From Hymenopellis radicata (Eukaryota; Basidiomycota; Agaricomycetes; Agaricales; Physalacriaceae), in contig JADNRX010000207.1 in NCBI GenBank assembly GCA_015501595.1, forward strand, positions 33,566 through 97,565: a stretch of DNA of 64,000 bases. The letters are read 5' to 3'. Shown in pieces: positions 1,021-4,579 of the stretch. The position numbers and the translations under genes are program-made. The notes under the pieces are model-generated. The model ran no database searches. It was not told the origin of the DNA and saw only the letters and a program-made list of their open reading frames with translations. How positions within the stretch are numbered: the stretch's first letter is position 1; every line of letters begins with the position of its first letter.

Positions 1021-4000
1021 TCATAGATCTAAGTGTCCTCGACGCACGGTGTCCAGACTGTGCAGAGAATCTAGAATTGTGCACGCCGTTGGTCGAGTTT
1101 TGGGTGATGGCGATATGCAGGGGGCTACAACTGCATCCCACAAATAGGGTGGAAGGATGTCGGTTGGTGGCTGCGGAGGGAGCCTCCTCAAAGCAATACG
1201 GTTCGCCACGGCGCCGTCGGTGCGCAAATCTGAATACGGCGGCTCGCCCGTGTAGATCTAAATCTCTGTCAAAGTTGCACAGGCGACTTGCGGTGTACTA
1301 ACCTCAACGATAGTGCAGCCAAATGAGTATATATCGACTTTCTTCAGAAGTGTGGGGTCAAATTCTGACTCATTTATCAGCTCCGGAGGAAGCCATCGGA
1401 TGTTTCCTCGGTTTCGTGTCGATGTACCCGGCAGCTGCGTCTCGGCGACGAGGCTTATTCCGAAATCAGCCAGACAACAACGGAAGTCCTTCCCTACAAG
1501 TATATTCGCCTGAAGAGAGCGGCGTCAGCGATCTTTCAAAGATGTAGGATGCCGGCCCCACTCACTCCGCGTATGTCTTTGTGGATCACGCAGGGGTCAA
1601 GACCGTGTAGGTATTCGATGCCAGCAGCGATATCCCAGAGCTATCCGCGAAGAACAATATTACTGTATAGTTCCCTAACTCGATAAAACTGACGTACACA
1701 TTGCCAACGGTCATGATGCGGATGGCTTTCTAAGAAGTCATTGATATTACCATGTTCCATCCACGGCGAGACGAAACAAAGGCGTCCCGGAAAGACCTCA
1801 ATGCTGACGCCATGGAAAGCTAGAATATTCCGGTGCGAGACTTGGCGCCAAATCAATGCTTCCTGACAAAAGGCCTGGACGAACATTGACATCTAGCCGG
1901 TTACAAGTGCATCGGAGACTCACTTTCATCACCCGTTCCATTCGTAACTTGCCTTGACTATGAATTCGGAGGATCTTCAGGCATACCAATTCTCCCTTGT
2001 ACCTAGCTCGACAGATATCCTGGGGAAGTGTCAGCTTCAACTGCCATTTATATAAGAGAACCTACTGAAAATGCGCCTCCAGCATGCATGACATTGTCGC
2101 GCGCGCCAAGATCACTTGCGGGTAGATATAACTGAGCTGGAAGGATATCGTATAGCGTACTCAAGGAACGTAGACACTTGATGACTCTCCGTCGATCCTC
2201 AGAGTCGCCAGACGAAATCAAGCCAAGGTTCTAAGCAACGATCAGAAGGATGAGGTAGTGTCAACAGCCTGTACATACCGACTGAAGCTTATTCATCACT
2301 TCTTGAGCCAGGGCTTGCGGTATGTACTCGATGTTCCTCCACGGAGCCTCTTGTCTCATGATCCAGTGGATAGCATCATTTAAATCGAGCCCGTTATTAG
2401 TCTGTGTGCGGGAGGACGCGGAAGAAAGGGGTATTACGACCTCCTGCAAATTCTCCTGTACCTGCGGAGGTGAAGAGCGAACATCCACAGCAAGTTCGAG
2501 CTCCATAGAATGCTCGTAAATAGTGTCCAACAGCGGAGACCACAAATGCGTGATGGTGGTGGTGGAGGGTGTGTTGATAGCAGGCAGCGAACGCGGGGCC
2601 GGCGACGAATGATGACAACACGGAGACACAGAAGCATGACCTTGGGGCGGCTGGTCCTGAGAGGGTATAGGATCATAAGGATAGGGTTGAAGGAGCCGAG
2701 GCAAGTCCTTTGCCCACACACCGAATTCAAAAGCCGAAACGCGTGCCGAATCATCATTGGCGTCTTCCAAGACGTTGAACACTCGATTTGAGAGCATTTC
2801 GGCCACAGCACTAGTCATCCCCGTGAAGCGCTGCAGGAAGAAATCCGCTGCATTCTGGCGGTATATGAGAAATGAATCACAGACGCCTTGGCGGGTATCC
2901 GTCCATGGATTCAAATGGTACAGCCTGTGCAGCGTAAACGTGAGTACATGATTGGGACCGTGTAAGGAAGCGACAACGAACATGTTGATCAGCACAATGC
3001 CAAGCGACCAGACATCTGCTGCACGAAGGCTATAGATGATATTATTTCTGTATTCTAGAAGACGAAAAGGTAAGCAATTAGCATGTCATGAGGAGATGTA
3101 ACATACCGTAACTCATGTATGGCGTGTTATCACAATCTGCTGTGAGCGAATTGTCATCACTGGCAGTCGACGACCCAAAATTAGTCAGCTTGACGATGAA
3201 GTTACGCTCCTGGCGCCCATCAGGCGTGGTCTGCCAAGCGTCGGTGACAATGAAGCTTTTGGGCTGGATATTGCGGTGGAAGACCTGCTGGTTATGACAC
3301 GATGCGACGGCCTCACACATCTGGGAGAACATGGAAGATATGAGGCGCAGACGTGTATAAGAAAGGAGCTGGGAGGGATGTAGCTTAGAGAGAAGACTGG
3401 AAGTTAATGTAGTGAGCAAAGAAGCCGAAGGATCGACGCAGGTAGGGAAGTCGCTTCCATCGTAATCACGGGCGTGTTCAAGGAAACTGAATAAATTCTC
3501 GCCAGGGACATACTCCATGACAAAGAGGATCAATGAATCTGAGGGCGTCTCAAGAAATCGATAGAGAGCAACAACATTGGTGTGTGGATCGAGAGACTGA
3601 TGAATGGTGACCTAAGATGGTGGCTCTACATTAGCGAGATTAAGGACAACAGATTACGAGGCACATACCCCGGACATCAGCGCTGATAGAACCCTCTCGT
3701 CAAGGTTTGCCTTCGACACACACTTGATCGCATACTCGCGCCCATAAACCCTGGAGGTTCCTCTCGAATGATGACTCTCCATACCTATACCCCCGGTAGC
3801 TGCAATGCGACCATCCTTCGAAGGAGGGCAGTACAAGATTTCGCGCACACGATAGACGACAGAGCAACTGCCAGCCCCAAGACATCGAATGACTTCAAAC
3901 TCCTGGATGCTCTGGTCAATTAATGTTCCAATTAGGACACCACCTGAATCAACAATGCGAATTGGAGAGACTGTTCTCGCAGGTTGCAACTTGCCATGGG

Positions 4001-4287
4001 CTTCCGGCGGTAGATGGTCGAACTCTGCCGCCAGCGAGGCCTGCCTCGTCGAAGTTTGAACAGAGGAGAATATGCGTAACGTCCCAGGGGAGAAGCTTGA
4101 GCGCTTACTGCCGTTTTCTGGACGGGACGCGCTGGAACGCTTCAAACCCGGTAACAGCATATTCACGAAGATCGGCCATTTCGGGAGTATCATTGCGCGC
4201 GCAGAAAGAAGGAGTGTAGGTCGCCAACTGGACGCTCTCTGAGCGTATTGTCGGTCTGTGCGACGAGAATTGAACAAAAATGACCAA
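1021..4287 (-). CDS. Two-kinase fusion: Ran1/Ksp1-like pseudokinase joined to a TKL-like kinase
   Basis: Hand-spliced exons (minus): 4287-4109, 4044-3669, 3611-3107, 3054-2982, 2924-2279, 2230-2066, 2019-1924, 1874-1698, 1640-1566, 1509-1303, 1257-1021. All junctions are GT-AG, phases agree and no stop interrupts 2736 nt (911 aa). The N-terminal half (about residues 110-480) resembles fungal Ran1/Ksp1-type Ser/Thr kinases: glycine loop GAGSCSVVY, AIK lysine, PYMSYEYRNN and NPWTDTRQGVCDSF. Its catalytic motifs read HRN instead of HRD and NFG instead of DFG, so it is predicted to be a pseudokinase. A Pro/Ser/Thr linker leads, inside the single exon 2924-2279, to the PWRNIEYIP module of the local kinase family. 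The second module and an intact kinase follow: VCLK, IHKDIRGANIL, ADFG, WLPPE and a normal C-lobe. Two separate genes with an unrecognised junction remain possible, but the shared exon argues for one protein. The start is uncertain (4287 or 4179). Confidence 0.72.
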
Positions 4288-4579
4288 CCCTGCGCACCTC
4301 GATGGAAATCAAGATTTTTGGAACTCCGCAAGATGGCCGAGCCTCTGCCGCGCCGTCGGGCCATGTCATAGAGACCTAGTCAATCGTCGCCTATATCGTT
4401 TGGCAAGTTCCCCGACCATAGTGAGAATAGAGACGAAGAAATTTGACTATCATAACCTTCCTCTAATCGACGACTTACGATCACAGATTCACAGGTAGTT
4501 ATCACCGCGTTCCTCGGACGCCTCGGAAAGCCTGGCGTCTCATCAGGGCTTTAGAAAACAATCATTCAATTTCTTAAAG

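Follow-up and report, generated by a model that had tools for sequence, protein, structure and literature searches.

In the Janus kinases both kinase domains are of the tyrosine-kinase type and are carried together with FERM-SH2 parts, and in Gcn2, a eukaryotic protein that occurs in fungi too, a pseudokinase lies N-terminal to the active kinase. Fusions across kinase groups have precedents as well, RSK/MSK combining an AGC with a CAMK kinase. The JH2 domain of the Janus kinases is described as dampening JH1 (PMC8141879), and contact of the Gcn2 pseudokinase with the kinase domain was reported to stimulate phosphorylation of eIF2alpha (PMC4014428). Wheat tandem kinases such as Lr9/WTK6-vWA likewise combine a kinase with a suspected pseudokinase in a single chain, and their second kinase has been proposed to be a decoy (PMC10260399). 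Kinases of the Ran1/Ksp1 type are classed as Other/RAN (PMC3591445), and the FslK kinases of Agaricomycetes are TKL-like and multi-copy (PMC3937382, PMC2838846), with exact functions that were termed undetermined in PMC3937382; the words 'Ran1' and 'fusion' each occur 0 times in the main text of that paper. No fusion of a Ran1-type kinase with a TKL kinase was found among the titles and abstract openings listed for open-licence papers.

We analysed a window of 64,000 nucleotides from Hymenopellis radicata (C527:33566-97565), whose assembly spans 75.5 Mb over 1405 contigs. A JGI assembly of the species, annotated with the use of RNA-seq, is described in PMC8480192, and we infer it to be the assembly analysed here. 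On the minus strand of the window, a Ran1/Ksp1-type pseudokinase was found joined in frame to a TKL-type kinase, as a sequence-only reading of the stretch had proposed. Contig C437 carries a second haplotype or close copy of the locus (96% identical over 7.4 kb including the flanks), annotated as two proteins, P0216 and P0001, and contig C618 carries the intact Ran1-type gene P0003. The features of the fused gene are given below in window positions; residues are numbered along a 958-codon model from an ATG at 4364, in which residue 58 is the Met at 4193.

1021-4193, minus strand: whole coding region, 10 exons, 901 codons plus stop; start taken from P0216 and from a stop upstream in the other haplotype
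4193-3669, 3611-3107, 3054-2982, 2924-2279, 2230-2066, 2019-1924, 1874-1698, 1640-1566, 1509-1303 and 1257-1021, minus strand: coding exons
2654-3914, minus strand: Ran1/Ksp1-type pseudokinase domain, residues 151-515 (Pfam PF00069, E 7.9e-27; conserved columns; codons)
2387-2653, minus strand: linker, residues 516-604 (loose alignment to the tail of the intact Ran1-type gene, 50% identical bases)
2066-2386, minus strand: helical module of the TKL family, residues 605-695 (common to relatives; four helices predicted in the P0001 model)
1021-2019, minus strand: complete TKL-type kinase domain, residues 696-958 (PF07714, E 1.3e-37)
3055-3106, minus strand: intron 2; in the C437 haplotype one extra base just upstream puts the dead half out of frame
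2925-2981, minus strand: intron 3 (GTTCGT..CACAG), phase 2, matching intron 3 of the intact gene

The start was placed at 4193 because P0216 begins at the equivalent Met, which in that haplotype is preceded by an in-frame stop; with the ATG at 4364, which shares the frame, the gene would reach the 958 codons of the numbering model. The eleven exons and 911 codons counted earlier were replaced by ten coding exons and 901 codons, and the start proposed at 4287 had to be given up, this position being neither an ATG nor in frame with exon 1. All nine introns are GT..AG and 45-57 bases long, and the ten exons splice in phase. Intron 3, placed at 2981-2925, closes the frame of the fusion in agreement with the intact Ran1-type gene, and the frame survives either its splicing or its retention. 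Exon 2924-2279 had been read as running without a stop from the Ran1-type C-lobe into the N-terminal module of the TKL family, and it was found open with homology on each side of the junction; a chance open frame was rejected on account of this homology. The fusion point lies at about 2398-2387, the Ran1 homology ending at about residue 601, where canonical proteins read NKRRKRG, and the TKL module follows. The KRRKRG stretch in the tail of 11 aligned relatives is absent from the fusion, and the TKL kinase stands in its place. In the annotated P0001 of C437, the junctions of introns 4-8 match our model by eye and intron 9 is read through, hence its different end.

Set beside the described systems, the gene resembles the Janus kinases in carrying a dead domain in tandem ahead of a live one, but its halves come from distant kinase groups and the regulation of one by the other is a proposal. 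It does not belong with the Janus kinases, the first domain being Ran1-type and Pfam giving only the two kinase families for either half. The likeness to Gcn2 lies in a pseudokinase beside an active kinase in what is predicted to be one chain; Gcn2, however, is an eIF2alpha kinase with a tRNA-binding part, and neither half of the fusion falls in that family by Pfam or in the trees. The wheat tandem kinases differ in belonging to plant families, in their domain order and in the kinase groups involved. The second domain is TKL-like and comes from a multi-copy family, as the FslK kinases of Agaricomycetes do. From the Ran1/Ksp1-type kinases, the parent of its first domain, the fusion differs in having lost five of seven core residues and in having the basic tail replaced by a TKL kinase.

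In the first domain the VAIK Lys214 is kept, and the alpha-C Glu (Gly at 232), the HRD Asp (Asn at 346), the catalytic-loop Lys (Gln at 348) and Asn (Ser at 351) and the DFG Asp (Asn at 376) are lost, the set of seven being K, alpha-C E, HRD D, K, N and the D and G of DFG. The motifs HRN and NFG, noted by the sequence-only reading as a change of both Asp to Asn, are thus present (codon 346, AAT at 3272-3270; codon 376, AAT at 3182-3180), but the loss was not limited to these two residues; Glu350 and residues of the activation segment are lost too, and all five catalytic-motif losses occur in both haplotypes. Among 156 aligned relatives (those of 221 matches that covered more than 340 query residues), D346, K348 and N351 were invariant in every row with a letter, and D376 in all except two, P0253 and P0267. 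Of 126 conserved columns chosen with P0003 excluded, 26 were changed in the fused copy and none (0/126) in P0003. When P0003, P0267, P0299, P0262 and P0253 were all excluded, losses fell on 14 of 36 functional columns versus 13 of 109 other conserved columns (p = 0.0007), the functional set having been named after the alignment had been seen; six of the 13 lost non-functional columns are hydrophobic-for-hydrophobic swaps and the remainder are less mild. RNA editing that would restore catalysis was considered and rejected: the AAT codons are recodable in principle, but Gln348 (CAG) and Gly232 (GGG) cannot regain Lys and Glu (for the limits of A-to-I recoding, see PMC7306014).

The fused copy was the sister of P0003 with support of 100/97 and 100/99 in trees of 41 and 24 hand-picked Ran1-type rows, respectively (the TKL tree was built from 38 such rows), and in the 41-row tree its end branch measured 0.62 against 0.014 for P0003. 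Introns 1-3 fall at the aligned positions of those of P0003 and share their phases (0, 1, 2), so the first half is a genomic duplicate and not a retrocopy. Ran1-type matches on C527 were found solely at the gene under study. Some relatives carry the names 'Negative regulator of sexual conjugation and meiosis' and 'CAMK/CAMK-unique protein kinase'. In Mycena pura we saw another two diverged copies of the Ran1 type, P0253 and P0254; P0253 reads NFG, and in its annotation the kinase is preceded by a long N-terminal stretch that does not match it.

The second kinase had been called complete, and this held, with Lys710, Glu732, HKD at 806-808 and DFG at 826-828 all present. It belongs to the TKL group: its nearest solved sequences are CTR1, TNNI3K, B-Raf and Roco4, and a fold comparison of the P0001 model placed B-Raf, CTR1 and RIPK2 on top. 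In that model, where the dead domain is represented by its C-lobe only, the four-helix module (P0001 residues 181-240) reached a pLDDT of 89-97 per block, and module plus TKL kinase up to about residue 400 gave block means of 86-97, lower beyond; residues 1-172, the C-lobe and linker, lay nearly all below 50, and no interface was readable. The family has many copies on C527. Among the matches listed, at least about ten further TKL-family loci, grouped by hand, lie at 16343-50075 of the window on both strands. P0002 (46311-50787, minus strand; 1122 residues, 18 exons) strings three TKL-type kinases together, of which by eye the first has HEA/GFW and the third HNG/HFS instead of HRD/DFG, the middle one being intact; it is possibly a dead-live-dead triple and could be a merged gene model.

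Towards the end of exon 2, the C437 copy contains a single additional base that shifts the frame of the dead half; P0216 ends at this insertion and P0001 begins after it. C437 also has HHN where C527 has HRN. As Illumina and PacBio reads were used in the project, the insertion may be a sequencing error in a T run. P0001 itself joins the Ran1 C-lobe, the linker and the TKL kinase. Since C437 offers no ATG ahead of the second codon of P0001, the first codon has to be assembled across a splice junction, and this suggests, without proving, that the model was built on a transcript. No protein equal to the C527 fusion occurred among the matches listed (the best 120 of 370 and the best 120 of 138); P0216 represents two sequences. 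About 444 bases at 78-521, adjoining the gene, are absent from C437, and the two matches around them overlap by seven bases, like a short target-site duplication.

Between the haplotypes, dN/dS was 0.40 in the dead domain (13.5 silent and 18.5 changing differences), 0.078 in the TKL kinase domain (15 silent, 4 changing), 0.74 in the linker, 1.47 in the TKL module (1 silent, 5 changing) and 2.4 in the N-terminal extension (1 silent, 7 changing), the counts behind all these ratios being small. Amino-acid changes in the dead domain were fewer than expected under neutrality (one-sided Fisher test on rounded counts, p = 0.007; p = 0.028 for residues 58-604), and the domain was less constrained than the TKL kinase (N:S difference, p = 0.02). 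Against P0003, the fused copy showed a dS of about 1.2 and a dN of 0.20, a ratio of 0.17 over 362 codons. Indels relative to P0003, counted from residue 154 with the N-terminal extension excluded as too diverged, were multiples of three in 5 of 5 cases in the kinase domain and in 9 of 9 when the weakly aligned linker was included. In a neutral walk with 0.2 changes per site, the domain stayed stop-free in a fraction of 0.001 of 1000 runs.

A younger, unfused Ran1 fragment on C1329 resembles P0003 more closely than the fused copy does (blastn, 83% of columns; MAFFT, 88% of paired bases). It contains a stop, and 10 of its 15 gaps break the frame by blastn, or 6 of 10 when the fused copy's aligner is applied. 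By the blastn counts, the indels of the fused copy differed from those of this fragment with p = 0.03 without the linker and p = 0.002 with it (Fisher test); the gaps lie mostly N-terminal, and in the kinase part only one of the two breaks the frame, which keeps the comparison from being wholly like for like. C741 has a further Ran1 fragment, which contains a stop, and C485 has two. The fragment matches at L045 3016 (C1329) and at L047 2703 and L048 2693 (C485) end at one point of the intact gene (L044 5061), and the fragments on C1329 and C485 thus give the impression that a single captured piece was copied to several places. Taken together, the sequence comparisons favour, without proving, the view that the fold of the dead domain was maintained for most of its history.

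Homologues of the fusion were seen in two other genera. Mucidula mucida P0121 is the TKL ortholog (81% identity over 82%; three-row clade with support of 100/99 in the 38-row tree). In a comparison of three sequences, its residues 14-29 aligned with exon 3 of the Ran1 part of the fused copy at 87.5% over 16 residues (E 2.9e-12). Since P0121 starts with Ran1 exon-3 sequence, the arrangement is probably older than the split of Hymenopellis and Mucidula. Most of the dead domain is missing from the P0121 gene model, as is the DFG stretch of its TKL kinase, and no Mucidula protein was present among the best 120 of 138 matches to the dead half. The 709-residue protein P0267 of Roridomyces roridus is co-linear with the fusion and has a Ran1-type domain, a linker, the TKL module and the TKL N-lobe, after which it ends; its Ran1-type domain keeps HRD and the alpha-C Glu but has NFG. 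The objection that the two halves might always be separate genes in homologues is answered by these two proteins, both of which are gene predictions.

At least two separate kinase-like stretches were present in 3 of 317 matching proteins (the two C437 proteins excluded), and Ran1 plus TKL in P0267 only. A common clade of the Roridomyces and Hymenopellis fusions was rejected for each half, the two-row kinase clade with p-AU 0.018 and the four-row TKL clade with p-AU 0.0027, but a clade of the fusion, P0003 and P0267 was not rejected (p-AU 0.354). The Roridomyces fusion thus appears to be independent, with the caveats that P0267 has a long branch and may be a merged gene model. We put forward only tentatively, and at somewhat less than even confidence, that mushrooms may at least twice independently have joined a Ran1/Ksp1-type kinase to a TKL kinase with DFG turned to NFG each time, as a convergent cross-group switch or bait linking a conserved kinase of yeast type with a mushroom-expanded family.

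The explanation that we favour, with a probability of about one half, is that the dead half serves as a non-catalytic regulatory or aiming part in cis for the TKL kinase; the single protein, the folding of the dead half and the regulation are all supposed in it. The 5' part of a Ran1/Ksp1-type gene, introns included, would have landed in frame before a TKL-type gene, a step which tree and introns support, and this joining probably preceded the parting of Hymenopellis and Mucidula. The result would be one gene and, presumably, one two-kinase protein. The first domain would then have lost its catalytic residues and kept an open frame, in one haplotype, its selective keeping being supported by the substitution and indel comparisons. 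The dead half may set when or where the TKL kinase acts, either by contacting it or by holding partners or substrates of the Ran1 pathway.

Against this explanation stand the C437 frameshift, the annotation as two proteins, the weaker constraint relative to the TKL kinase (0.40 versus 0.078) and the thinness of the fragment control. Several of these points would also fit a dead half that is a slowly decaying passenger, the Ran1 copy having given a promoter or 5' end to the TKL gene and the C527 allele being open by chance. The frameshift and the weak constraint (0.40, with 0.74 in the linker and 2.4 on 8 changes in the N-terminal extension) are what decay would leave, and the truncated Mucidula model, the Ran1 fragments scattered through the H. 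radicata genome and the kinase part of the C1329 fragment, with just one of two gaps frame-breaking, point in the same direction. Decay agrees poorly, however, with indels that are all multiples of three despite a dS of about 1.2, with losses that focus on catalytic sites and with amino-acid changes below the neutral level (p = 0.007), and we regard a passenger as unlikely, though deserving serious weight. That the locus makes two separate transcripts, one from a broken Ran1 copy and one from a TKL gene beginning within exon 4, seems very improbable to us: exon 4 does contain in-frame ATGs and C437 is annotated as two proteins, but the sequence up to the junction aligns with the Ran1 tail, so that the TKL gene shows no 5' end of its own there, and P0001 joins Ran1 C-lobe, linker and TKL kinase in an annotation that used RNA-seq (PMC8480192).

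The dead Ran1-type domain could, alternatively, be an integrated bait that mimics its parent kinase, so that binding by something aimed at the parent triggers the TKL kinase. A fast-evolving dead copy of a conserved kinase, carried by a member of a locally clustered family, is what a bait might look like, and the apparently independent Ran1-TKL fusion in Roridomyces speaks for it as well. To our knowledge, however, no partner, trigger or immune role has been described for these TKL kinases, and the present data fit a bait and an allosteric part alike. Even with the decoy proposal for the second kinase of WTK6-vWA as a parallel (PMC10260399), we consider a bait improbable.

If the dead half does act in cis on the TKL kinase, as we favour, the fusion would offer a functional handle on the mushroom TKL family. 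Pseudokinase-kinase tandems such as those of the Janus kinases and Gcn2 are old, and their origin is therefore hard to watch. Here the intact parent can be set directly beside its fused dead copy, the two haplotypes, the unfused fragments and a second fusion that appears to be independent, and through these comparisons the order of events, namely fusion, loss of catalysis and new constraint, becomes testable.
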